Shown piece by piece: positions 38,328 through 51,198 of a stretch of DNA of 64,000 bases. Position 1 is the stretch's first letter. Each line of letters starts with the position of its first letter. A program made the translations under genes and the position numbers. This DNA comes from a virus: the IMG/VR virus record IMGVR_UViG_3300035670_000083, positions 1 through 64,000 of that record. The stretch is one strand, 5' to 3'. The notes under the pieces were generated by a model that saw only the letters and a list, made by a program, of their open reading frames with translations, was not told the DNA's origin and searched no databases.

Positions 38328-38975
38328 TTAAAGTGGAAGTTCTTCTTCTCCTTCTTCACCTTCTGTTTCTTCTCCTTCTATTTCCTCGAATTCTCCTTGT
38401 CCCTGAGCTTGTCCTTGCATCTGAGTTTGTCCCTGAGCTTGTCCTTGCATCTGAGCTTGTCCCTGAGCTTGTCCTTGCATCTGAGCTTGTCCCTGAGCTT
38501 GTCCTTGTCCTTGAGCTTGTCCTTGCATCTGAGATTGTCCTTGCATCTGAGTTTGTCCTTGAGATTGTCCTTGCATTTGAGGTTCTTCTTGCATCTGTCC
38601 CTGTCCTTGCATTTGACCTTGTGGTTGTGCTTCCACTTGAATCTGTGCTTGTTGACCTTGAGGTTGAGTCTGTACTTCTCCTTGTCCTTGTGCATCACCA
38701 GTTAAAGCTCCTGCTGGAATTTGATCAACATTTAAGAAGTTCTGTGTTATATATTTTACAACTTCTTCAGCTATATCAACATCACCAAAGAATTGTCTTA
38801 GGTTTTTACCAGTGTTGTCTTTCACTTTCTTAACATAAGCGTTAATCATTGATTGTGGTATGTCAATCATTGTTCTCACCTTATAGATGTCGTTAACTTG
38901 TAGAACAGATTCTTTAATGATCTCTTCTTTTCTTTTTTTGGTTTGATAGTTTCCAAATTTTCTAATATGTTTCAT
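38328..38975 (-). CDS. Leader-bearing protein with Gln/Gly-rich repeats
   Basis: 215 aa: leader MKHIRKFGNYQTKKRKEE, a folded-looking part to about residue 95, then a low-complexity tract (about 95-190) of QGQAQ and QMQG units encoded by CTTGxCCTTG-type DNA repeats, and an acidic end (EEIEGEETEGEEGEEELPL). The repeat tract is probably disordered and may vary in length by slippage. Role unknown; the leader hints at a virion location. Confidence 0.7.
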   Translation of the reverse strand: MKHIRKFGNYQTKKRKEEIIKESVLQVNDIYKVRTMIDIPQSMINAYVKKVKDNTGKNLRQFFGDVDIAEEVVKYITQNFLNVDQIPAGALTGDAQGQGEVQTQPQGQQAQIQVEAQPQGQMQGQGQMQEEPQMQGQSQGQTQMQGQSQMQGQAQGQGQAQGQAQMQGQAQGQAQMQGQAQGQTQMQGQAQGQGEFEEIEGEETEGEEGEEELPL

Positions 38976-40648: not shown

Positions 40649-40930
40649 ATGAGTACAATAACAGAAAAAAAATCAAAATCAAAAGTAGATGAAATACTTT
40701 CAAAGCCATTTAAGTTGATTCTTCACAACGATGATTATAATTCCTTCGAATGGGTAATAACTTGTTTGATTAAAGTTTGTGGACATGATCATCAACAAGC
40801 TGAGCAGTGTGCTCATATAGTTCATTTTAACGGTGAATGTGATGTTAAAAGAGGTGATTATGAGAAACTATCTGTGATGAAGGAGAAATTACAGAATGCT
40901 GGTTTGTCAGTTACTATAGAATCAAATTAG
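40649..40930 (+). CDS. clpS: ClpS-like adaptor
   Basis: 93 aa, full length. FKLILHNDDYNSFEWVITCL carries the NDD motif that starts the N-degron pocket; AEQCAHIVHFNGECDVKRGD and KLQNAGLSVTIE complete the family pattern. Bacterial ClpS delivers N-degron substrates to ClpAP and inhibits other ClpA substrates. A phage copy could redirect host proteolysis. It is the last gene before the cassette array. Confidence 0.92.
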   Translation: MSTITEKKSKSKVDEILSKPFKLILHNDDYNSFEWVITCLIKVCGHDHQQAEQCAHIVHFNGECDVKRGDYEKLSVMKEKLQNAGLSVTIESN

Positions 40931-40954
40931 TAAAGTATATCAAGAAATAGACTG

Positions 40955-40990
40955 AACCTCACATTACATATACATCTTGTTATATTCAGT
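40955..40990 (+). repeat. Half attC-like site at the array start
   Basis: CTCACATTACATATACATCT followed by TTGTTATATTCAG. It matches the right arm of the sites ending at 43378 and 46049, but no left arm precedes it, so it may be the fixed end of the array. Confidence 0.5.
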
Positions 40991-41030
40991 AATTTTTAAA
41001 TTATTTTCAAAAAATCGTTTTTTTTTTTTA

Positions 41031-41040
41031 TTAATATATA
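41031..41040 (+). promoter_or_regulatory. TTAATATATA promoter-like element in cassette 1
   Basis: Ends 23 nt before the ATG of the 12-codon stub at 41064. The upstream 50 nt resemble the start of the cassette at 42063. Confidence 0.5.
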
Positions 41041-41063
41041 GAATATAAATATTATCAGAAGAA

Positions 41064-41102
41064 ATGAAAAATGTAAAACTATATAAAGTGGATACGTATT
41101 AA
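41064..41102 (+). pseudogene. 12-codon leader stub
   Basis: ATG to TAA encoding MKNVKLYKVDTY, a leader-like start preceded by a normally spaced promoter-like box but with no body. It could be the remnant of a cassette whose body was lost, or a tiny leader peptide. Confidence 0.35.
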
Positions 41103-41113
41103 TTTTTTTATTA

Positions 41114-41156
41114 CACATAACGTTCCGATTATTTGCGTTCGGTGGGGCGTTACACC
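41114..41156 (+). repeat. attC-like palindrome 1
   Basis: CACATAACG at the left and GGGCGTTACACC at the right, AAC at 41119 and GTT at 41149, inner arms TCCGA/TTCGG. Short (about 33 nt between the outer triplets). Confidence 0.55.
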
Positions 41157-41172
41157 ACCAATGATTATTATA

Positions 41173-42004
41173 TGAGTAAAGAAATGAGAAGGTTAATAGT
41201 TACTTTTAATAAGTTTGTTATTAAAGAAAAGTCTAATAATATTAAAAAATAGTTTCAAAATATGATGCTCCGTATGGAATTATTTTTGATGGGGAAAACA
41301 AAATATTAGTTGGTGATATGCACCAAACACCAGTTGAATTATCTAAAAAACTTGAAAATAAAGTAGTTAATGTTGCAAACAAATATGGTTATTATGGTGA
41401 AGGTATTGGTTTGGAACATAACGAAGCAATCACCAAATCATCTTTTTATGAAAGATTAGACCCCAAAAAACATTATGGTTCTTGGGATAGAAAATTAATT
41501 GAAAGTGGTGAAGTACCTGAAGATAAAAAATATTTTTTTTTGTATGCTTTGTTTTCAAATCCAAAAGAAAATCATAGATTAGAAAAATTATTGGAAAATA
41601 CGGAAGAAGAAGATACAATTTTTTATGTCTTACTAAAAACTATACCCGATTGGTCAGCAGATATGGGTAAATTTAGTTTAGGACAAAAAGAACTAAATAA
41701 ATTTCTTAAAGAAATAAGTGAAAATGGAATTGATTTTATTCAAATGTCACAACAAAAAGCAGATGAAAAATCATTATCAGAATTTTTAGATTTAGGAGAA
41801 AAATTACAATGGCCTGAAAAAAATTGGCAAGATTATCCAAATATGGCAGGTAAATTTGCAAGAGTGGCGACAACCATTAGAGACCAATTTTTAATTAATG
41901 CTGGACCTGGGGTTTATTTTGTCGGTGCGGGACATCTTAAAGATATTGTAAAAATGGGCAAAGAAAAAAAATTATCTTTAATAGGGGGCGAAAAAATCAT
42001 GTAA
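41173..42004 (+). pseudogene. TraB/ChaN-like cassette gene with a -1 frameshift
   Basis: The frame from ATG 41173 (MSKEMRRLIVTFNKFVIKEK, leader-like) ends at TAG 41251-41253 after an A6 run. One extra A would join it to the next frame, which reads IVSKYDAPYGIIFDGENKIL, VGDMHQTPVELSKK and on to the stop at 42004; the intact part from ATG 41318 is 228 aa. VGDMHQTP near the front and VYFVGAGHLKDIV near the end recall the GxxH and GAGH motifs of TraB/GumN or ChaN-like proteins. The break may be real decay, a homopolymer sequencing error or slippage. Confidence 0.55.
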
Positions 42005-42015
42005 AAAATATTGTG

Positions 42016-42068
42016 TATAACGTCCGATGATAAACAATCGCTTTAATGTTGTTTATCATTTGTTATAT
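42016..42068 (+). repeat. attC-like palindrome 2
   Basis: AAC 42019 and GTT 42062 enclose GATGATAAACAA and TTGTTTATCATT (11 of 12 paired) around a short loop. The core differs by one base from the site at 45301, while the sequences outside the triplets differ. Confidence 0.65.
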
Positions 42069-42111
42069 TCAGTTAAATTTTTTCAATTATTTCAAAAAAC
42101 CGTTTTCTTTA

Positions 42112-42121
42112 TTAATATATA
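42112..42121 (+). promoter_or_regulatory. TTAATATATA promoter-like element in cassette 3
   Basis: Ends 22 nt before the ATG at 42144; the cassette therefore brings its own promoter. Confidence 0.55.
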
Positions 42122-42143
42122 AAAGAAAAATAATATTAAAACT

Positions 42144-42818
42144 ATGAAACATATAAAAAAATATGAAACTTTTCTAGAAAAAAAATGGATACTAGGAATA
42201 AATGAAAACATTTTTGATAAAATTGAATCACTAGTTAAGGGAAAATCAGACTCTGGTAAAATTATATCCGAATTCTTAACTAAGAACGGAATTAAAGAAA
42301 CTGGGACTGCATATTCAATTCTCTATTTGGGCGGTGCTAATCCAGGCAAATCCGAATTAAGTCACCCATTTGATTATTTACATTATACACCAGGTATCGC
42401 TAAGATTACAGAAGATGGTGTTTTAGTATTAAATGATGAAAAATCTAAATCATTAAAAACACCAGATACATTATCATTTCTAGCAATTATTGAAAAAGAT
42501 GATATTGTTAAAAATTGGACATTTGGATTAAAACAAGGGTGTAGTGTAAATAAAAATGATTATACTTTTGATTTAACAAAGGATATTTCAACTCTAACTT
42601 TTAAAAAATCTATGTGGTCAATGTTGAAACAAACTTGGATTAAAGGAGAAGATGAAGTTGTAGAACTTGATAATGATATTACTGAACTTAAAGAGGAAGA
42701 TACTATATCCTTCAAAACCCCTATGAATATGATAACTCTACAACAATGGGTTGATAAGTTGAATGAGACAGGATGGGTTAAAGAAAATAGTAAATATTTT
42801 AAAGAATATATAAAGTAG
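42144..42818 (+). CDS. Cassette protein with leader, unknown function
   Basis: 224 aa, MKHIKKYETFLEKKWILGIN leader. The body has a glycine-rich turn (YSILYLGGANPGKSELSHPF) and a C-terminal helix with two Trp. No recognised family. Sole gene of its cassette, bounded by the palindromes at 42016 and 42900. Confidence 0.65.
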   Translation: MKHIKKYETFLEKKWILGINENIFDKIESLVKGKSDSGKIISEFLTKNGIKETGTAYSILYLGGANPGKSELSHPFDYLHYTPGIAKITEDGVLVLNDEKSKSLKTPDTLSFLAIIEKDDIVKNWTFGLKQGCSVNKNDYTFDLTKDISTLTFKKSMWSMLKQTWIKGEDEVVELDNDITELKEEDTISFKTPMNMITLQQWVDKLNETGWVKENSKYFKEYIK

Positions 42819-42899
42819 GCAATAATCCACAAATAAAAAACACCAATTCGTTAAGTGAAATTGATTATTTTATATCCACAATTGGAAAACGAAACAGAA

Positions 42900-42952
42900 C
42901 TTAACGGTTGAGAATATGTGTTCGTTTTAATGACACATATTCTTTGTTATAT
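42900..42952 (+). repeat. attC-like palindrome 3
   Basis: AAC 42903 and GTT 42946, with perfect 10-bp arms GAATATGTGT/ACACATATTC and an 11-nt loop. The spacing between AAC and GTT is the same as in the sites at 42016 and 45301. Confidence 0.6.
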
Positions 42953-42975
42953 TTAGTATCAAAAATTTTATACAA

Positions 42976-43218
42976 ATGAAAAAATGTAAATGTATTAAAG
43001 AATCTTCTTGGTTTTTAATTGATGATTCCTTCGATAAGAATTCTAAATTAAATGGTGGTGGATTTTCTTTTCAAGTAGGTAGTGAATATGATTATTTTGA
43101 AGAAGATACACCATTTGGAAATGGTATGTCGGTTATCCATCCTAAACATGGGAAAGAAAATCCTACTGGTTTTGATGAAAGAAGATTCTACGAACACTTT
43201 GAAATAATAAACTCATAA
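42976..43218 (+). CDS. Small cassette protein
   Basis: 80 aa, MKKCKCIKESSWFLIDDSFD. Cys pair near the start, then a compact strand-rich fold with a GFSFQVGSEYDYFEED segment. No leader. Function unknown. Confidence 0.6.
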   Translation: MKKCKCIKESSWFLIDDSFDKNSKLNGGGFSFQVGSEYDYFEEDTPFGNGMSVIHPKHGKENPTGFDERRFYEHFEIINS

Positions 43219-43234
43219 AATTTTTGATATTGAA

Positions 43235-43386
43235 CCTAACGATACTCAGATATATTTAGGTTTTCTTTTTAATGTAGTGTGAGATTTGAAACACTACCTG
43301 TCAATATACCAACAAACTCTATTAGAAGCACTTACCTTCAATTAACCACCGAATCTCACATTACATATACACCTTGTTATGTGTAG
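43235..43386 (+). repeat. Long attC-like site 4 (composite)
   Basis: AAC at 43238 starts a 28-nt block that recurs exactly at 44953 and 46416. Further in, GTAGTGTGAGATT (43274-43286) pairs with AATCTCACATTAC (43352-43364), 12 of 13. GTT is at 43376. The length (about 140 nt) is within the known attC size range. It could also be two sites with a lost cassette between them. No gene is seen in this 270-nt stretch. Confidence 0.5.
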
Positions 43387-43488
43387 GTGTGATTATTTAC
43401 CACCAAACTCTATTCGGAGAACTGAAAGAAAATTTTAGAAAAAAGAAGGGAGGGAAATTTAATTCAGAATATTTTATATATATCATCT

Positions 43489-44304
43489 ATGATACTCAAA
43501 TTTAATCAGTTTATAACTGAAAGACTTTCCTATTCTGAAGATGTTGAGATGATCTCAAAGATTATAATTGAATACTTATATGGTAAAGAAAACTGGGAAT
43601 CAGAAGAAGTGATAAAAATAGATAATTCGGTTATAAATGAAGTAAGAATACAATTCATAGATAATTTAAGTAAGTTAGGAAAAAAATCATCATTTAATCC
43701 AAATAAATCAGATTATAATAATCGTATGATATTTTTAGAATTTGATCCAGATGAAATCACCGAAGGATTGTTAAATCATGAAGTATTTCATGGGTGGGAA
43801 TGGATTCGAAATGAAGGAAAACATTTAACTAATTCTTTTCAATTCGCAATTATTCAATTAAATAATTACTTTGAAGAAGATGAAAACATATCTGAAATTA
43901 TTCAACTATTTTATTTAATGTCAGATGCTGAAATTAGATCTCATTTAAATAGTGATATATTTGAATTTAAAAGATGGAAAGAGGATAAAAATACCACTTC
44001 GATGGAAGAAATAGATTTATTAATAGAGGAAACAGATACATTTCAAAATTATCAATTTGTGAAAAAATTTAATCTAAACGAATATTTAAATAAATTGAGT
44101 ACTGAGAAATTAGATGAATTTATATCAGCAGTTGAACAAATGAAGTATATGAAAGATGGTGAAGAGTCTGAAATTATGGTGAAGAGATTTTCTGATTTAG
44201 AGAGAAGTAAATTTATACAAAAGTTAAATATTATACACAAACAACAAAGTGAAAAAATTACTAAATATTTAGGAAAATTAATATTATATTTCAGAAACTC
44301 TTAA
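43489..44304 (+). CDS. Cassette-encoded HExxH metalloprotease-like protein with leader
   Basis: 271 aa, leader MILKFNQFITERLSYSED. The zinc-protease motif HEVFH is at 97-101 (LLNHEVFHGWEWIRNE). A downstream Glu in YLMSDAEIRSHLN (E148) is placed to be the third ligand, as in ExxH-E metallopeptidases. The last 120 residues are helical and charged. The best-supported enzyme of the array; a packaged or injected protease is possible. Target unknown. Confidence 0.65.
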   Translation: MILKFNQFITERLSYSEDVEMISKIIIEYLYGKENWESEEVIKIDNSVINEVRIQFIDNLSKLGKKSSFNPNKSDYNNRMIFLEFDPDEITEGLLNHEVFHGWEWIRNEGKHLTNSFQFAIIQLNNYFEEDENISEIIQLFYLMSDAEIRSHLNSDIFEFKRWKEDKNTTSMEEIDLLIEETDTFQNYQFVKKFNLNEYLNKLSTEKLDEFISAVEQMKYMKDGEESEIMVKRFSDLERSKFIQKLNIIHKQQSEKITKYLGKLILYFRNS

Positions 44305-44372
44305 ATTTTTTTTAGAAAAAATTTATTTGATACATTTTTAATTACTATATTTGCGTATATAATAAAAATAAA

Positions 44373-44626
44373 ATGGAAAATCTCAAACAAGAAAATAACT
44401 ACGAAAAATTTGTTATCAGACAGAAGGTGGTTGGGTATTAAAAGAAGGCGTGGCTAAAAAGGAAGAGATAAGTTTTTTTGTTGTTAGTCCTGATGGTAAA
44501 GAACTTACTTGTTTAGATGGTTCAAATATATTCTCTTCTGTTGATAAATCTGATTTGTTAGAATCGTTTAATATGAGGTTTAAAACAAACTGTGTTAGTG
44601 TAGAAAGACCAAATGTTTTTGAATAA
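44373..44626 (+). pseudogene. Small cassette gene broken by a -1 frameshift
   Basis: ATG 44373 begins MENLKQENNYEKF but meets TAA after 22 codons. Adding one A in the AAAAA run near 44404 would continue as CYQTEGGWVLKEGVAKKEE and on to NVFE at 44626, about 84 aa in total. It is the second A-run frameshift in the array. Protein family not recognised. Confidence 0.5.
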
Positions 44627-44649
44627 GAAAATAATTGAAAAATAATTCA

Positions 44650-44736
44650 ATATAACGGTTGCAAATATGAGAAGTAAATTTTTTCCATAAAAAAATAGAA
44701 AAATCAAAATTTATTTCTTATATTTGTTGTTATATT
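44650..44736 (+). repeat. attC-like palindrome 5
   Basis: AAC 44654 and GTT 44729. Long arms: TTGCAAATAT...AAATTTT pairs with AAAATTTA...TATTTGTTG with a few bulges, around an A-rich loop. Confidence 0.55.
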
Positions 44737-44758
44737 TAGTAAAAATTAATTTATACAT

Positions 44759-44938
44759 ATGAAATACGAAGCACTTAAAAAAGAATATTATGCAGTTTAT
44801 GAAAAAGAACCAAGACACCAGAATGAAAAGAATGGTGTGATACTTGCACCATATAACACGAAAGAAGAAGCTGAACAAGCGAGAATTAAATATGGTTATA
44901 GTGATGATAACTACTATGTTGATAAACTCATAAATTAA
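44759..44938 (+). CDS. Small cassette protein (59 aa)
   Basis: MKYEALKKEYYAVYEKEPRH..., a small alpha/beta protein with a helix NTKEEAEQARIKYGY before the end. The leader region TTATATTTAGT...TATACAT is nearly the same as that of the cassette at 42976. Too short to be sure of a fold; function unknown. Confidence 0.6.
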   Translation: MKYEALKKEYYAVYEKEPRHQNEKNGVILAPYNTKEEAEQARIKYGYSDDNYYVDKLIN

Positions 44939-44952
44939 TTTTTATTGAATAT

Positions 44953-44980
44953 AACGATACTCAGATATATTTAGGTTTTC
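44953..44980 (+). repeat. Array repeat block, copy 2 of 3
   Basis: A 28-nt block starting AACGATACTCAG, identical to 43238-43265 and 46416-46443 and followed by the same T-rich stretch and promoter-like box. It has only a weak internal palindrome, so it may be a truncated attC-like site. Confidence 0.6.
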
Positions 44981-44983
44981 TTT

Positions 44984-44993
44984 TTAATATATA
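44984..44993 (+). promoter_or_regulatory. TTAATATATA promoter-like element
   Basis: 13 nt before the ATG at 45007, closer than the usual 20-24. Confidence 0.4.
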
Positions 44994-45006
44994 CTAAAAA
45001 CAATTT

Positions 45007-45288
45007 ATGAAAGATAATAAACACATAAAAAGTTTCAACGATCATCAAGAAAACTTGAATATATCTGATGTTAGTGGTAGTGAAATATTAAAATATCTTG
45101 ATGATAAATATCATGTAAAAGATAATCTAATGATTGTTGGTAGATTTGATAAGAACAAAAAATATAATTATATTCAATTGTCTAATGAAATATCAAAGGT
45201 ATTTGGTTTGTCAACACAACAATCATTAGATTTAGTAGAAAAGTGGAAAGATATTAGATTTGAGAAAATTATGAAAAATAGATTTTAA
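45007..45288 (+). CDS. Cassette protein with KSF...ENLNISDVS leader
   Basis: 93 aa. The start MKDNKHIKSFNDHQENLNIS, then DVSGSEIL, shares the segment ENLNISDVS with the cassette protein at 46478, while the bodies differ. The C-terminal part (STQQSLDLVEKWKDIRFEKI) is helical. Function unknown. Confidence 0.6.
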   Translation: MKDNKHIKSFNDHQENLNISDVSGSEILKYLDDKYHVKDNLMIVGRFDKNKKYNYIQLSNEISKVFGLSTQQSLDLVEKWKDIRFEKIMKNRF

Positions 45289-45300
45289 TATTTAATTATC

Positions 45301-45353
45301 ACTAACGTCCGATGATAAACAATCGTTTTAATGTTGTTTATCATTTGTTATGT
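45301..45353 (+). repeat. attC-like palindrome 6
   Basis: AAC 45304 and GTT 45347; core as in the site at 42016 with one base changed in the loop. The bases after GTT (ATGTGTAGG) belong to a different cassette start, matching that at 43379. Confidence 0.65.
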
Positions 45354-45461
45354 GTAGGTGTGGATTATTTACTACTAAACTTCAATCGGAGAACTGAACA
45401 AAAATTTTAAAACAAAAAGAAGGGTGGGTTTTTTAATCTTACTATTTATATATAAAAGAAA

Positions 45462-45890
45462 ATGATGAAAGATTTGAGACAGTTTATTAAAACAACCATA
45501 CGTGAGTTTTTGAATGAAGCATACATTGATGAGGATGGTAATTTAAAAGACTTTAATGATAAAATATTCTATGATTTTGATAAAATTAAAAAGTTTGTAG
45601 ATTGGTTTCAAAGTGAATATAGTGATTATACTCATAAACAGGGTTGGTCTATATTCGATTCTGATACAGAAGCACCTAATGAAAAATATCATAGTGAAAG
45701 AACTTTTAATGGTAAAAAATTGAATGGATATTATTGGCAAGTTCAAAGATTAGATTCACCAAGTGATGACGAAGCATTATTTGGGAAATTACCAAATGAT
45801 TATAAGGCTGATGATTTAGCAAGAAAGTTAGGTTTAATGGTTGATGAATACGGTGTGGTTTATGGTTGGGATGGACAATCTTTTTTATAG
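45462..45890 (+). CDS. Cassette protein with leader, unknown function
   Basis: 142 aa, MMKDLRQFIKTTIREFLNEA leader of a type widespread in phage proteins (xFIKxTIREFLNE). The body is acidic and aromatic (WFQSEYSDYTHKQGWSIFDS, GYYWQVQRLDSPSDDEALFG). Its cassette starts with the same about 50 nt as the metalloprotease cassette. Confidence 0.65.
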   Translation: MMKDLRQFIKTTIREFLNEAYIDEDGNLKDFNDKIFYDFDKIKKFVDWFQSEYSDYTHKQGWSIFDSDTEAPNEKYHSERTFNGKKLNGYYWQVQRLDSPSDDEALFGKLPNDYKADDLARKLGLMVDEYGVVYGWDGQSFL

Positions 45891-45959
45891 TGTGTGGGAT
45901 TTTTCTTTTAAAATTTTCAACCGAAATATTGATTAGAACGATGAATGGAACACTTACAC

Positions 45960-46053
45960 ATAACGGATGGGTGTATATGTAGGTTTTTTAACTTTAAAAT
46001 TTAATATATACTTATGAACTGAATAAAAAACTTACATATACACCTTGTTATGT
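45960..46053 (+). repeat. attC-like palindrome 7
   Basis: AAC 45962 and GTT 46047; arms GTGTATATGTAGG (45971-45983) and CTTACATATACAC (46031-46043) pair at 12 of 13 positions. Outer CACATAAC/GTTATGTG also pair. The loop contains a TTAATATATA box. Confidence 0.65.
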
Positions 46054-46081
46054 GTTAGTAAAAAATAAAAGGAAAAAGAAT

Positions 46082-46387
46082 ATGAAAAGATTAAAATACA
46101 TTAAAAGATTCAATGAATCAAATGAAATGGATATTGAAATTGAATTAATTGGTCCTGATATAGATGATATTTTAGATGCAATTAACTTCATAAACAATAA
46201 CTATGATGTGAGTGTAAATCCAACAGATTTTCAAGAAGGTTCTGATATGCCTTATGCTCATAAAAGAAATCAAAATTATTCAATTTTTGTTAAGTTAAAT
46301 CCTAGTGGTGATGAAAAAAGTCATATCAGATTTATTAATGATTTGTTGGATGAAAACGGATTCTCTTGTAGGTTGTATATGATTTAA
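46082..46387 (+). CDS. Small cassette protein with leader
   Basis: 101 aa from ATG 46082. Ten open codons upstream lie within the palindrome flank and are rejected. MKRLKYIKRFNESNEMDIEI leader, then a ferredoxin-like alpha/beta pattern (IELIGPDIDDILDAINFINN, YSIFVKLNPSGDE). Function unknown. Confidence 0.65.
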   Translation: MKRLKYIKRFNESNEMDIEIELIGPDIDDILDAINFINNNYDVSVNPTDFQEGSDMPYAHKRNQNYSIFVKLNPSGDEKSHIRFINDLLDENGFSCRLYMI

Positions 46388-46415
46388 TGATATTATTTAT
46401 TTTCTTATTACACAT

Positions 46416-46443
46416 AACGATACTCAGATATATTTAGGTTTTC
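46416..46443 (+). repeat. Array repeat block, copy 3 of 3
   Basis: 28 nt identical to the blocks at 43238 and 44953, preceded here by CACAT and followed by TTTTTAATATATA. Confidence 0.6.
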
Positions 46444-46447
46444 ATTT

Positions 46448-46457
46448 TTAATATATA
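46448..46457 (+). promoter_or_regulatory. TTAATATATA promoter-like element
   Basis: Ends 20 nt before the ATG at 46478. Confidence 0.55.
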
Positions 46458-46477
46458 AACAAAAATAATTTAACAAC

Positions 46478-46708
46478 ATGAAAAGTTCAAATAATGTAAA
46501 AAGTTTCAAAGAGTTCAATGAAAACTTGAATATATCTGATGTTAGTGATAGTTTTTTGTCACCCGAAGAATTTTTAATTGATTGGGAAGGTAAAGATGAT
46601 TCAACACACCCCAATCAAGATATTAGAGACGAATGGACTAAAAGAATTAATCAATTAAAAATTTATTCAAAAATGGTTCTTGATAACACTTTAAAAAATT
46701 ATCACTAA
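46478..46708 (+). CDS. Small cassette protein with KSF...ENLNISDVS leader
   Basis: 76 aa, MKSSNNVKSFKEFNENLNIS then DVSDSFLSPEEFLIDWEGK. It shares its first about 25 residues with the protein at 45007 and then diverges. Last cassette gene before the recombinase; no palindrome separates them. Confidence 0.6.
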   Translation: MKSSNNVKSFKEFNENLNISDVSDSFLSPEEFLIDWEGKDDSTHPNQDIRDEWTKRINQLKIYSKMVLDNTLKNYH

Positions 46709-46745
46709 CTATATTATATATGTAATGACCTATAAATAATTGATT

Positions 46746-47549
46746 ATGAATGAAAAGGGTAAGTCAACTTTAAAGATTTGTGAACAAAAACTTAATTATC
46801 TAAATTATTCTAAAAGAACGATTGATAATTATTTATCACATATTAATAGATTTTTAAAATCACAAAATAAATCATGTTTGCATTTATCATCTAATGATTT
46901 TCAGTCATATTTAGATAATTACAAATTTACTTCTATATCGCAACAAAACCAAGTTATTAATTCTATTCGATTTCTTTATAAAGAAGTTCTCGGTAAAAAG
47001 TATGATAAAGTCTCTTTCAAAAGACCTAAATCTGAAAAGAAACTTCCACAGGTTATAGATGGTGATTATATAAAATCACAATTATCTAAAATTGATAATC
47101 TTAAACATAAGGCAATCCTCACACTAACATACTCGGTTGGATTAAGGGTTTCTGAAATAACCAATCTTAAAATTGAAGACATTGATTCAAAAAGAATGAT
47201 CATTCATATAAAAAATGCAAAAGGAAAGAAAGATAGGATTGTTCCACTTTCTGAAAATGTTTTAAATTTGCTTAGATATTATTGGAAACAATATAAACCA
47301 AAAGAATACCTTTTCAATGGATTATCCGGTAGATATTCAATTCAATCCTGTCAGAAAATATACAAAAAATATATTGATGAAAAATCATCATTTCATACAT
47401 TAAGACATTCTTCATTTACTAATTTACTTGAGTCAGGAACAGATTTGCGGATAATACAGAAAATAGCAGGTCATTCAAGCTCAAAAACAACCGAAATATA
47501 TACTCACGTTTCAAATCAAATTTTAAGGAAAGTTAAATTACCCATCTAA
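46746..47549 (+). CDS. Tyrosine recombinase, XerC/D-like
   Basis: 267 aa from ATG 46746. The N-terminal SAM-like core-binding domain (about 1-95) is followed by the catalytic domain with all active residues visible: Arg in SVGLRVSEITNL, Lys in AKGKKDRIVPL, HxxR in FHTLRHSSF, His in IAGHSSSKTT and the nucleophile Tyr in TEIYTHVS. The length is that of Xer/short integrases; the extra helix that distinguishes integron IntI proteins is not seen. It lies directly after the cassette array and is the obvious candidate to recombine the AAC...GTT sites. It ends 12 nt inside the converging terminase gene. Confidence 0.9.
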   Translation: MNEKGKSTLKICEQKLNYLNYSKRTIDNYLSHINRFLKSQNKSCLHLSSNDFQSYLDNYKFTSISQQNQVINSIRFLYKEVLGKKYDKVSFKRPKSEKKLPQVIDGDYIKSQLSKIDNLKHKAILTLTYSVGLRVSEITNLKIEDIDSKRMIIHIKNAKGKKDRIVPLSENVLNLLRYYWKQYKPKEYLFNGLSGRYSIQSCQKIYKKYIDEKSSFHTLRHSSFTNLLESGTDLRIIQKIAGHSSSKTTEIYTHVSNQILRKVKLPI

Positions 47550-49748
47550 TCCCCAAGATTTTCTAGCTTCTACCATCCTTCTATTATAAGAGATTTTATT
47601 TCTTCTTATATCCAGTAATTGTTTATAATCAACTCCTTCTTCATATGATATTTTATTTAAAATATCATCAACTTTATTTCTTATCTGTATATCTTCTAAA
47701 TTATCAAAATAATCATCTACCATCCCTCTGAAATCATTCTTACCAAAAATAGATGTTAGGTTAACCAAAGTCATAACCGTATCATCATTTTTATTACCAT
47801 CAGCTTTATAAGTAATATTTCCAGTTCTTGTTGTATGTTTTATAAATGTTGTCATTTCATCTATATTTTCGTTATTATAAATAATAATTGATCTATCTTG
47901 CATTTTTTCTTGGTAATCTTTCACCATTAGGTTTTTATTCTCACCAACTTTTAATCCTATTTTTTCATCTAACGCATCTACTCTGTGTTTAAATCTAAAG
48001 AATATAGATGATCCATAGTTGTTATTTCCTTCAAATACATTCGGTAAGTGAGCAAGTAACTCATATCCGTATGTATTGACTTCTAATACAGCTTTTAAAT
48101 TATCTGTATCAAAATGATCAAAAGCTAAAACATAAAGTAATTCTGATAATTCATTGACGGATATAAGATTGCTTCTATACATTCCTATTTGTTCAAGTTG
48201 AATAAAGTCAAGTATGTTTCTATAATTCTTATTTTGTCTTTCTATTAGATCTATCGGCTTTGATTTTAATTTGAAAATATTTATCACCGTATAGTCCTGT
48301 CCTAATCCTTCAGATACATCTATACTTAATAGTATCCGATAATTTTTTCTTATTTGTGGATTATAAATTTCTTTATTCGGATGCCATTTTAGATCTTTGT
48401 AAGAGAATTTAAGTTTTTCTTCTATTTCAGGAATTTCCTGCCATTCAAATAATGTTTTTCTATCAGTTAATTCTTTTATTAATCCATCATCTAATAATGA
48501 TCTAGATGAGTTAATAAACTTCAAGTCAAATTCTTGGTTAAAAGCTTCTTCACCACCAATATCTTTGATTGTTTGTTTTTTCCAAGTTGTTATTTCAGCA
48601 ATTTCTGGTAATTTAATATCATTTATTGTTTCTTTAATGATATCTTCTTCCTGACAATCATCAGAATTAAAAACATGAACAACCCACTTATTTAACTCGT
48701 CATCAAATCTCAGCTCTGATTTATTTTTTGGAAAAGATTCTTTAATCCTACTTAAAACATCTTCTGGTTTGACATTGTAGTGATCTAATTTCTTTTGATT
48801 CAATCTTATGTATGTCACGAATCTTTTCGGAACTTGCCACCAATAAACTCTTTTTGCCACATAAGATGATTTTTCGCCTTCAGGCTTTTCAGCTTCTATT
48901 AAAAGTTTGTGAAATAAATTAAATCCGTTTGGAGTAGAGGTTATTATAATTTTAGAATTATCGATGTTGGCAATAGTAGGAAACACCGATTTGTAGAATT
49001 TATCTGCAATATTATCTGGTAGATAAGCAAACTCATCTAAATATAAAAAGTCAGCAGATTGACCGATAGAAGCGGTTTTTGTTGTTGCAAATCCTTTTAT
49101 ACGACTTTTATTTTCAAATGACATGAATTTCTCATTCCACTTTTTAATACCTTGTTGTAAGAAAAATGGAAGTCTTTGGTATATTTCTTTCATTTTATCA
49201 AGGATCTCAGTTGCTGTATCCAACTTATTTGCTGTTACAAGAACGTTTTTGTTATTATTAAAAAGAACAAAATGTAATATGGTTATTGCTGATGTGATAG
49301 TATTATGTGATAAAATACCATTTGTATAATATCTATGATTTGGATGATCAATAGATAAATCAAACATAGATAGTTTATGATTTGTTTTTTCTATCATTTT
49401 AACTTTTGATATTCCTTGATCAGTTTGTATGTAATCGCCTATTTTTAAATCTTTTATGTATATTTGATTAAAGTCCACATCAAATAAAATGTGATTATCA
49501 GCACCGTTAAGAAATAGTCCATTTTCTAGTTTTAAATTATATTCACTATAAGGTTGTGTTATATGTATTTGCGGAGCTATTTCATAACCAGTGTCTGTTT
49601 TCACTGATAAGTTGCAACTTATTGTATTCAATATCTTTTTGGATATATCATGTTCATTCAAATCTAAATTTCTGTATTCGAAAACTTCTATATACTCAAT
49701 TAATTTTTTTATTAAATATATTATGATAAGAGTAAAAAATCTAAACAT
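47538..49748 (-). CDS. Large terminase C-terminal part with C-intein (split TerL)
   Basis: 736 aa. Residues 1-149 are a C-intein: block B-like GLFLNGADNHILFD, then DLKIGDYIQ, and the terminal splice motif RYYTNGILSHN, followed by the +1 residue Thr150. The remainder is T4 gp17-like terminase: TITSAITILHF (continues Walker A), Walker B FLYLDEFAYLP, ITSTPNGFNLFHKL, then an RNase H-type nuclease with LSIDVSEGLG, AVLEVNTYGYE and KNDDTVMTLV acidic residues. It packages DNA into the head by ATP hydrolysis. Alone it lacks the Walker A lysine. Its start overlaps the homing endonuclease gene by 28 nt. Confidence 0.92.
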   Translation of the reverse strand: MFRFFTLIIIYLIKKLIEYIEVFEYRNLDLNEHDISKKILNTISCNLSVKTDTGYEIAPQIHITQPYSEYNLKLENGLFLNGADNHILFDVDFNQIYIKDLKIGDYIQTDQGISKVKMIEKTNHKLSMFDLSIDHPNHRYYTNGILSHNTITSAITILHFVLFNNNKNVLVTANKLDTATEILDKMKEIYQRLPFFLQQGIKKWNEKFMSFENKSRIKGFATTKTASIGQSADFLYLDEFAYLPDNIADKFYKSVFPTIANIDNSKIIITSTPNGFNLFHKLLIEAEKPEGEKSSYVAKRVYWWQVPKRFVTYIRLNQKKLDHYNVKPEDVLSRIKESFPKNKSELRFDDELNKWVVHVFNSDDCQEEDIIKETINDIKLPEIAEITTWKKQTIKDIGGEEAFNQEFDLKFINSSRSLLDDGLIKELTDRKTLFEWQEIPEIEEKLKFSYKDLKWHPNKEIYNPQIRKNYRILLSIDVSEGLGQDYTVINIFKLKSKPIDLIERQNKNYRNILDFIQLEQIGMYRSNLISVNELSELLYVLAFDHFDTDNLKAVLEVNTYGYELLAHLPNVFEGNNNYGSSIFFRFKHRVDALDEKIGLKVGENKNLMVKDYQEKMQDRSIIIYNNENIDEMTTFIKHTTRTGNITYKADGNKNDDTVMTLVNLTSIFGKNDFRGMVDDYFDNLEDIQIRNKVDDILNKISYEEGVDYKQLLDIRRNKISYNRRMVEARKSWGLDG

Positions 49749-50677
49749 TTTTGTATTGTTTCTTTTTTATTCTTACGATATTCAGAATCCCATATTACTA
49801 GAACTTCAAATCCGTGAGATTTTGCTACATCTAACTTTATTTTATCTTTTTCCCAAATTTCTTCCGATTTTCTTCCCTTTCTGAAAGGATGTGGATAATC
49901 ATCACTTTTAAAAATATTTGGATTGGCATGATACTGATCACCATTATATTCAATTATCTTTTTATTTTTAAGATAAACAAAATCATACATCCAGATACCA
50001 CCACCATTCTTAGGTAGTCTAAATTCACCACCATTTGTAGCATATAGAGAATCTTTTTTGTTTATACTAATGGAATCAAATAGTTGCTGGCTACTTTTTG
50101 AGTATCCTTGTTTAAGATTTCCATTTTTAAGTAAAGAATTTTGCCATTTAATCTGCCTTTCTGTAAAAATTCTTTCACCATCCTCAGTTCCATATTTTTC
50201 TATACACTTATCTAAGTTAAATGTAGTTTGTCTTTCTCTTCTTTTTTCAATTGATTCATCTTCTGTAAATCCTTTATCTATCCAATATTCTAATTTTGTA
50301 GGATTTGGTTTTTCTTCGTTAACTGATTTTATAAAATTTAATCTTTCTTCATCAGATTCATAATTTTTGAATTCTTTTGAAAACGGACTTCTACTTTTTC
50401 TTTCTTCAGATGTAGTATTTGACTTGTGATTAGGATTTTTTTCACCAGAGAACATATCAGAGAACATCTTTTTATATTTTTCTTCTTTCATGTGTTTTCC
50501 GGAGTTTTTAGTAGTTTGTTTTAAATCTGATTTACACATTAATGGTGATCCCGGAAAAAGTTTTTTATATTCTTTTGATGACATTCCATTGTGCTTATGT
50601 TTTAAGTGTTTACCATATATCCTTTTGCATTTTTCACCACAAATTCTACAAGTTATTAAGTTATCTATTTCTTCCAT
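49721..50677 (-). CDS. Vsr/EDxHD-type homing endonuclease inside the split terminase locus
   Basis: 318 aa. N-terminal zinc finger CRICGEKC...HLKHKHN (10-30) with the MSSKEYKKLFPG segment common in phage homing nucleases. A helical middle has a CIEKYGTEDGERIFTERQIK then WQNSLLK pattern. The C-terminal nuclease domain (about 205-318) reads GGEFRLPKN, YDFVYLKNKKIIEYNGDQYH, IWEKDKIKLDVAKSHGFEVL and VIWDSEYR, the Vsr-like fold of homing enzymes such as I-Bth0305I. Its position between the two intein-containing halves is the fractured-gene arrangement known from phage split inteins. Confidence 0.85.
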   Translation of the reverse strand: MEEIDNLITCRICGEKCKRIYGKHLKHKHNGMSSKEYKKLFPGSPLMCKSDLKQTTKNSGKHMKEEKYKKMFSDMFSGEKNPNHKSNTTSEERKSRSPFSKEFKNYESDEERLNFIKSVNEEKPNPTKLEYWIDKGFTEDESIEKRRERQTTFNLDKCIEKYGTEDGERIFTERQIKWQNSLLKNGNLKQGYSKSSQQLFDSISINKKDSLYATNGGEFRLPKNGGGIWMYDFVYLKNKKIIEYNGDQYHANPNIFKSDDYPHPFRKGRKSEEIWEKDKIKLDVAKSHGFEVLVIWDSEYRKNKKETIQKCLDFLLLS

Positions 50678-50691
50678 ATTTTATATATTAT

Positions 50692-51198
50692 TTATGGCTT
50701 CTCACCAATTAGGTAAAGTATATCATATAGTTTTATTTTTATTCTTTCTAATAAAGTTAGATCTCTTTCCAATGATGTTAGAAAATAGTATAATCTACCA
50801 ATACGAGTGTGTATTTCTATATCATTATCCTTCAGAATAATTTCCGTATTAAATGATATACATTTTCCGGTCTGACGGCTGGCCATTAGTATATTGAATC
50901 TGTTGTTAAAAAAATTATCTAAAATTTCTTCTTGATAATCTCTTAATTTAATTTTTACTGGAGATCCTTTTTCTCCCTTTACCCAACAATAATTCTCAGC
51001 GAAATAATGAATATCCATTTTACATTTAATGTATTCATCGATTTCATGTGGAGTCATTTTAAATGAAAGTCCAGATTTTCTCAATCCTATTACCTTTTCA
51101 TGAAAGGGATTTTCGACATTTTTCAATATCTCACCCATGTTCAACATTTCTATCTTTTCATTTACTAATTTAGTTGTCCATATTATTTGTTTCGACAT
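50692..51198 (-). CDS. Large terminase N-terminal part with N-intein (split TerL)
   Basis: 168 aa. Residues 1-112 are the terminase N-terminal region, with the adenine-binding-type LRDYQEEILDNF and Walker A start NILMASRQTGK. At Cys113 an intein begins: CISFNTEIILKDNDIEIHTR, then a charged helix ending LIGEKP and a stop (nt 50862-50695). The 56-aa N-intein lacks the block B histidine, which is on the other fragment, so the split lies earlier than in most split inteins. Trans-splicing would join Lys112 to the Thr of the other half and restore SRQTGKT. Confidence 0.9.
   Translation of the reverse strand: MSKQIIWTTKLVNEKIEMLNMGEILKNVENPFHEKVIGLRKSGLSFKMTPHEIDEYIKCKMDIHYFAENYCWVKGEKGSPVKIKLRDYQEEILDNFFNNRFNILMASRQTGKCISFNTEIILKDNDIEIHTRIGRLYYFLTSLERDLTLLERIKIKLYDILYLIGEKP

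Follow-up and report, generated by a model that had tools for sequence, protein, structure and literature searches.

Can a phage genome carry a gene-capture system of its own, comparable to an integron but built around a different recombinase? The question is raised by positions 40,931 to 47,549 of a 64,000-nucleotide (nt) stretch of DNA (hereafter the window), which is part of the 100,284-base uncultivated virus record IMGVR_UViG_3300035670_000083. In this locus, an array of short units, each with an open reading frame (ORF) and a hairpin-forming site, adjoins a gene for a tyrosine recombinase. An earlier note, made from the letters alone, read it as a phage-borne system for cassette exchange, similar to an integron and with a recombinase that may be of a new type. 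That reading is well supported: the ends of units are complementary, the hairpins covary, the recombinase has an attI-like site beside it, and units have moved with exact borders. Very probably, a large contractile-tailed phage carries here an integron-like system for gene capture; its host, judging from relatives and composition, probably belongs to the Bacteroidota.

Hairpin sites, units and exchange point

Sites were sought with a scanner for TAAC-spacer-stem...stem-spacer-GTTA in which spacers were allowed; this spacer-tolerant stem scan replaced a strict end-anchored palindrome scan that had overlooked the 46-nt sites with their 5/2 spacer. Seven hairpin sites with TAAC/GTTA ends were found, all within 42,019-46,543 and none elsewhere in the window (Table 1). 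The array exceeds chance; 30 dinucleotide shuffles of it yielded no site with the same scanner. Five of the seven palindrome pairs listed in the earlier note are among these sites (those starting at 42019, 42903, 44654, 45304 and 45962). The pair 41119/41149 covers just the left-hand portion of a longer kind of site, matching locus L080, and 43238/43376 combines a left half of the 44953 type with a right half of the 45962 type, the latter ending near 43376. Two genuine sites were missing from that list, 44953-45072 and 46416-46543, both of which enclose the start codon of the next ORF. At its far end the array holds a right-half site remnant near 40963-40983 and the incomplete site from 41119. 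As the note had said of the units, every cassette ORF of the window points one way, and most do so in the relatives too.

The same recombinase was found in about 85 related phage contigs, with the array nearly always at its 5' end. A first count with the scanner gave 226 sites in 57 recombinase loci, the window included, and when loci were added, the recount reached 232 sites in the 473 kb that precede the recombinase versus 14 in 702 kb downstream. Six of these 14 probably belong to another array in L004; both L004 (at ~18.2-20.6 kb) and L083 have a further group of sites about 8 kb downstream of the recombinase. Spacers are near-constant; in most sites AAC is followed by a spacer of 5 nt and GTT is preceded by one of 1-2 nt, and the 5' arm is longer by 3-4 nt in 218 of the 226. 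Six sites were folded as in an excised circle; most of them form a near-perfect hairpin with a single 3-4 nt bulge in the 5' arm, and fold z-scores lay between -5 and -7 in all six. In one length class (34 diverse sites), double compensatory changes were found at 17 of 25 base pairs, TAACG and GTTA were fixed or nearly so, and G-T pairs were conserved. Among 175 distinct sites with a difference between the strands, 162 have the more stable hairpin on the + strand. Since ends and fold are conserved while the sequence varies, and one strand is favored, the sites behave as attC. Rfam gave no attC-like match for them. A run of the same site types, including a near copy of 44654-44731, was also observed in L255 (LR756500, a 462-kb uncultured huge phage), where the recombinase is present merely as a remnant elsewhere in the record.

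Two lines of evidence define the unit and its borders. The right box of a site pairs not with its own left box but with the left box of the next site, that is, within the same unit; in unit 45962-46415, for example, the right box GTTATGTGT pairs with the unit end ACACATAAC. Unit ends have on average 4.85 matching nt, compared to 1.92 in random pairs, and at least 6 matching nt in 51% versus 1.9% of cases, as would follow from an earlier circular form of each unit, like that of integron cassettes. The other line is provided by units shared between two contexts, in which the core travels with the ORF on its right, and identity stops right after TAAC, before either a different core or the attI-like sequence. 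Such exact TAAC breaks, on one or both sides, were found in L066/L093, L006/L044, L007/L022, L033/L055, L056/L078, L002/L068, L002/L094 and L002/L090, and the L066/L093 junction reads ...TTGCCACTAAC|TATTATATATA versus |GTTTTGCGTATATAC. Moreover, a 394-nt unit is present twice in one contig (L053), and L006, L007 and L022 have common units with losses, one unit repositioned and one repeated.

Because the core moves with its right-hand ORF and the borders lie at TAAC, the exchange point is AA|C on the + strand, or G|TT on the - strand. As in classical attC sites, this point is next to the bulged arm. The earlier note had expected exchange at the right-hand G|TT of the displayed strand, and had proposed that related phages be compared for cassette turnover at that position. 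Gain, loss, duplication and reordering were indeed observed at exact borders, but the border is the left AAC; the fixed gene order that the note had named beforehand as refuting is contradicted by these junctions. A model in which exchange at the right-hand GTT fuses leaders to new ORFs was rejected, as core and ORF move together in whole-unit junctions. One unit type (45304-45518 plus 45887-45965; also L007 6313-7397, L089 and L032) keeps its start, consisting of site and leader, and its end, and the middle parts are unrelated between phages, like a chassis with exchanged cargo.

By its borders, the mobile unit runs from C through the hairpin core, GTTA and the ORF to TAA. We hypothesize that it can close into a circle, in which its two ends would form one continuous palindromic box, which for unit 45962-46415 (right end joined to its own core) would read ...TTACACATAAC|GGATGGGTG... 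The + strand of the core, as a folded single strand (the form of attC that integron integrases recombine with attI) or an extruded cruciform, would adopt the near-perfect hairpin with its 3-4 nt bulge on the 5' arm, and the neighboring tyrosine recombinase would probably cut TAA|C beside the bulge. Units could then be inserted at the attI-like TAAC|TATTATATATA by the 5' end of the recombinase gene, or be excised and reinserted beside other units.

The recombinase and the attI-like junction

The recombinase possesses all catalytic residues (R, H, R, H, Y), as the first reading had stated, and these are invariant in 15 relatives. It scores under every curated NCBIfam cut-off: the best match is NF040815 (175.8 bits, cut-off 220), and TIGR02249, the integron integrase, reaches 160 bits in two stretches (cut-off 265). 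The alignment to IntI4 skips the I2 region. The catalytic Arg and HxLRH are 85-87 aa apart in the phage family (85 in the window protein), as against 91-92 aa in bacterial relatives, 96-98 aa in XerC/D and 133 aa in IntI (n=10), and this short distance means that the phage proteins lack the I2 insertion. A maximum-likelihood tree unites the phage recombinases with those of L096-L099 in one clade (support 100/100); the latter contigs are filed as bacterial, some carry the same attI-like sequence, and they are probably phage. The phage clade groups with IntI and the I2-less bacterial recombinases, and XerC/D fall apart from it at 100/100, a grouping to which long-branch caution applies. By its sequences, the clade is separate from both IntI and XerC/D. 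The earlier description of the protein as XerD-like without the IntI insertion consequently holds for the insertion only, since the tree places it elsewhere than with XerC/D, whereas the suggestion that this may be a new type and no classical integron agrees with an I2-less recombinase, a clade of its own and reversed cassettes. The predicted structure, of moderate confidence (pLDDT 80, pTM 0.74), best matched IntI4 (2a3v, E 1.4e-12) and archaeal XerA (4a8e, 5hxy); the TM-scores near 0.5 may stem from uncertain domain placement, and the match supports the superfamily level alone. Among the isolated phages in the collection there was no close relative of the recombinase, the best being ~40% identical.

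The last unit nearly always ends with TAAC, and TAT(N)ATATATA comes next, immediately ahead of the recombinase start (conserved form TAAC|TATTATATATA). Within 250 nt upstream of the recombinase, the strict motif (TAAC|TAT..TATA) was present in 57 of 73 related loci, compared to 1 of 45 control windows, and most of the remaining related loci displayed clear variants such as AACTAGATTATAT. A host attB junction was not seen here; the attI-like motif abuts cassettes instead. The first reading had put the recombinase at the far end of the array, but its 5' end faces the attI-like site, which is the usual integron geometry, and it is the cassettes that are inverted. We infer that this recombinase, which is associated with sites and junction, catalyzes exchange at the array sites.

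Polarity, cargo and genomic surroundings

In phage units the longest ORF runs the recombinase's way and has the site on its 5' side (183 of 194), whereas the site lies on the 3' side of the ORF in all 21 bacterial units checked, drawn from one true IntI array as well as several I2-less arrays of bacteria. The long sites often encode the start of the following protein: 57 of 78 contain an ATG whose frame runs more than 25 codons past the site, compared to 25.5 in random body swaps, and the GTT that closes the site is read in frame as Val in 48 of these 57. The same leaders are found ahead of unrelated cargo, e.g. MKDLKHIKRFNESEENLNISDV|, and the 28-nt left-arm motif of site 44953-45072 has an exact match in 15 viral contigs. 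In integrons a common promoter, Pc, serves cassettes that have no promoter themselves. A Bacteroidota-type promoter box (TAnnTTTG) was found at 38 of 209 unit starts versus 24 in shuffles; as this enrichment is weak, a promoter inside each unit is not claimed.

The cargo is very diverse, with 304 ORFs falling into 263 clusters, 230 of them singletons. Few of the 100 cargo representatives scanned had Pfam matches, and these include two DNA methyltransferases, an ADP-ribosyltransferase, an exoribonuclease, an RNA ligase, a phosphatase-like domain, a GNAT acetyltransferase and a Lar-type restriction-alleviation protein. A role of the cargo in counter-defence against the host is plausible.

The virus record encodes a terminase large subunit (TerL), a contractile tail sheath, a UvsX-like recombinase, a DNA polymerase, NAMPT and an endolysin, and therefore represents a large contractile-tailed phage. 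The array is flanked by a ClpS-like gene (40649-40930) on one side and by the recombinase gene, which is convergent with the terminase gene, on the other. TerL is apparently split (47538-51198, minus strand): its N-half, which carries an intein-like start (...RQTGKCISFNTE), is followed by a separate endonuclease-like ORF (49721-50677) and then by an intein-like C-end (...YTNGILSHNT) with the remaining TerL; possibly, an intein has been broken up by a homing gene. A Gln/Gly-rich repeat ORF (MQGQAQGQ...) lies at 38328-38975 on the minus strand. The N-terminal motif MKhLKxFExxxxE recurs on many phage proteins (e.g. ORFs 985, 7112, 7492, 10895, 14835, 37646, 38328 and 63238), and cassette ORFs carry it as MKDLRQFIKTTIREFLNE|A. 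It resembles the capsid-targeting sequences of T4, and by this analogy cassette products may be packaged in the head.

Table 1. Features of the cassette array and recombinase locus (window positions).
Feature	Position	Strand	Basis
Array far end, ORF 41318-42004	40951-42018	+	no intact site by scanner
Core site, 46 nt; unit 42019-42902, ORF 42144-42818	42019-42064	+	scanner; homologous cores in dozens of loci
Core site, 46 nt; unit 42903-43237, ORF 42976-43218	42903-42948	+	scanner; fold z -5.0
Composite/degenerate unit, ORF 43489-44304 with HEVFHGWEW motif	43238-44653	+	no hairpin by scanner
Core site, 78 nt; unit 44654-44952	44654-44731	+	scanner; fold z -5.7; 26-nt complementary unit ends (I8, 92%)
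Cassette ORF, 59 aa	44759-44938	+	ORF list
Core site, 120 nt, holds start codon and leader MKDNKHIKSFNDHQENLNISDV; unit 44953-45303	44953-45072	+	scanner
Cassette ORF, 93 aa, start inside own site	45007-45288	+	
Core site, 46 nt; unit 45304-45961	45304-45349	+	scanner; fold z -6.2
Cassette ORF, 142 aa, leader MMKDLRQFIKTTIREFLNEA	45462-45890	+	
Core site, 88 nt; unit 45962-46415	45962-46049	+	scanner; fold z -7.1; covariation in its class
Cassette ORF, 101 aa, leader MKRLKYIKRFNE	46082-46387	+	
Core site, 128 nt, holds start codon and leader MKSSNNVKSFKEFNENLNISDV; unit to 46706	46416-46543	+	scanner; fold z -5.2; leader in frame
Cassette ORF, 76 aa, start inside own site	46478-46708	+	
attI-like terminal junction TAAC|TATATTATATATGTAATGACC, beside recombinase start	46706-46730	+	motif conserved in relatives
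Tyrosine recombinase, 269 aa (267 aa from ATG 46746), I2-less	46740-47549	+	Pfam PF00589 E 6e-34 and SAM-like N-domain

Alternative explanations and known systems

It could be argued that the cores are promoter or 5' untranslated-region RNA hairpin repeats that merely provide homology for the phage's UvsX-type recombination, and that the tyrosine recombinase has nothing to do with the units. We consider this unlikely, although the cores are indeed repeats of 46-130 nt 5' of ORFs with conserved G-U pairs in a phage that encodes UvsX. Cores alone are at times at least 96% identical between units with different bodies, which may reflect either GTT-side exchange or homologous recombination. Moreover, the bulge bases (TCC/TCT/TAT) in L006, L007 and L022 follow the left neighbor and not their own unit, so that part of the shuffling is likely due to homologous recombination between identical cores. 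Homology does not explain why units beside unlike right-hand cores or attI break exactly at TAAC, where some 4 nt are shared, why complementary unit ends lie hundreds of nt apart, or why the array adjoins this recombinase and its attI-like motif. The bulge variants nevertheless weigh against a capture system of the kind proposed, as do three further points. Two of the seven window units (42019 and 42903) have no complementary ends beyond GTTA, and none of the window units had a counterpart of at least 96% identity in another phage, the exchange being seen in relatives. Finally, IntI-type integrases have an additional I2 domain near patch III (PMC9668308, PMC7790495), which is used as their defining feature (PMC9668308); it is reported to be exclusive to IntI and the basis of single-strand recombination, which is held to have originated with it and to require it in IntI (PMC7790495), and it is absent here.

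Less probable still is an ordinary phage integrase with TAAC-TATTATATATA as its attP, beside an array that is an independent cluster of attC sites without integrase (CALIN), derived from host integrons and moved by host IntI. Integrases of temperate Cellulophaga and Polaribacter phages are ~40% identical to the recombinase, true IntI occurs in 37 of 99 sampled Bacteroidota genomes, and CALINs are known in virulent phages (PMC9892861). This explanation, however, has to contend with a motif that shares TAAC with every unit end and nearly always closes the last unit, with an ORF polarity opposite to all bacterial arrays checked, and with the tie to this single recombinase clade across ~73 loci. 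That the small genes form a fixed block, with hairpins resembling terminators and without any site-specific exchange, can hardly be entertained: small co-directional phage genes with intervening hairpins are common, but turnover at exact borders and covarying sites with fixed ends are not what such a block would display.

Given an integron-like capture system in this phage, a broader hypothesis could be proposed, which we hold with moderate confidence. A second, I2-less integron-like lineage would exist in phages and, on separate branches, in bacteria, recombining folded hairpins without I2. In phages the cassettes would be polarity-reversed and the site would double as leader, often contributing a start codon together with an N-terminal peptide in frame. 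The array would be an exchangeable store of small genes for host takeover or counter-defence. If so, large phages maintain their own dedicated gene-capture platform, in which recombination sites encode the starts of the carried proteins. An I2-less clade with such sites would either break the rule of I2 exclusivity (PMC7790495) or preserve an alternative or ancestral route, a question that is directly testable. Some bacterial arrays filed as integrase-less may also be explained in this way, insofar as several I2-less bacterial recombinases adjoin such arrays.

Among known systems, XerA, XerC and XerD share fold and catalytic residues with the phage recombinase, and XerA is among its best structural matches, but XerC/D are excluded from its clade at 100/100. 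Xer proteins resolve dif sites and, to our knowledge, keep no cassette arrays of their own. Using standard integron tools, Qi et al. (2023) reported integrons or CALINs in 21 of 10,705 phages, virulent ones included; these were canonical integrons or attC clusters without integrase, and some sites were IntI1 substrates (PMC9892861). The likeness lies in attC sites and cassettes within phage genomes; the difference is the phage-specific recombinase clade and attI-like site kept here in ~85 contigs. In Polaribacter phage P12002L, taken from that study, our scanner found no array of this architecture, and the open literature searched (preprints and most subscription papers lay outside the search) held no account of this phage system.

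Closer parallels are found in bacteria. The NF040815 recombinases (e.g. L112 from Flavobacterium terrisoli, L142, L121) also lack I2 and adjoin an array of hairpin sites with complementary unit ends. In contrast to the phage system, their array adjoins the recombinase gene on the 3' side, the ORFs have the classical orientation, many of the proteins have N-terminal extensions, and they occupy separate branches of the tree. Over 34 I2-less bacterial loci, mirror-image sites gave 46 hits downstream versus 2 upstream of the gene, and in L112 ten repeat copies follow the recombinase. Integron-like arrays were seen adjoining I2-less bacterial recombinases on the downstream side in L112, L142, L121, L100, L102, L110 and L134. 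Several of the genomes concerned have no detectable IntI; one over the cut-off was present in genome G102 and in none of G001, G103, G104 and G105.

With integrons, the chromosomal ones of Bacteroidota included, the locus shares an attI-like site adjoining the 5' end of the recombinase gene; tandem units, mostly of one ORF each, that behave as discrete mobile cassettes with the recombination point as their border; two or more attC-like sites with AAC/GTT ends, a conserved fold and extrahelical bases in one arm; complementary unit ends; and very diverse cargo. True IntI arrays of Bacteroidota display the same 5/1-2 spacer asymmetry, as judged from few sites and a relaxed stem threshold. It differs in a recombinase that, from its sequence, lacks the additional I2 domain of IntI-type integrases and belongs to a separate clade, in ORFs reversed relative to the site, so that the order of ORF followed by attC at its 3' end is not the one found, and in long sites that contain a start codon and leader peptide. 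There is consequently a strong case that the system works like an integron, while on account of I2 and cassette polarity it is not one.

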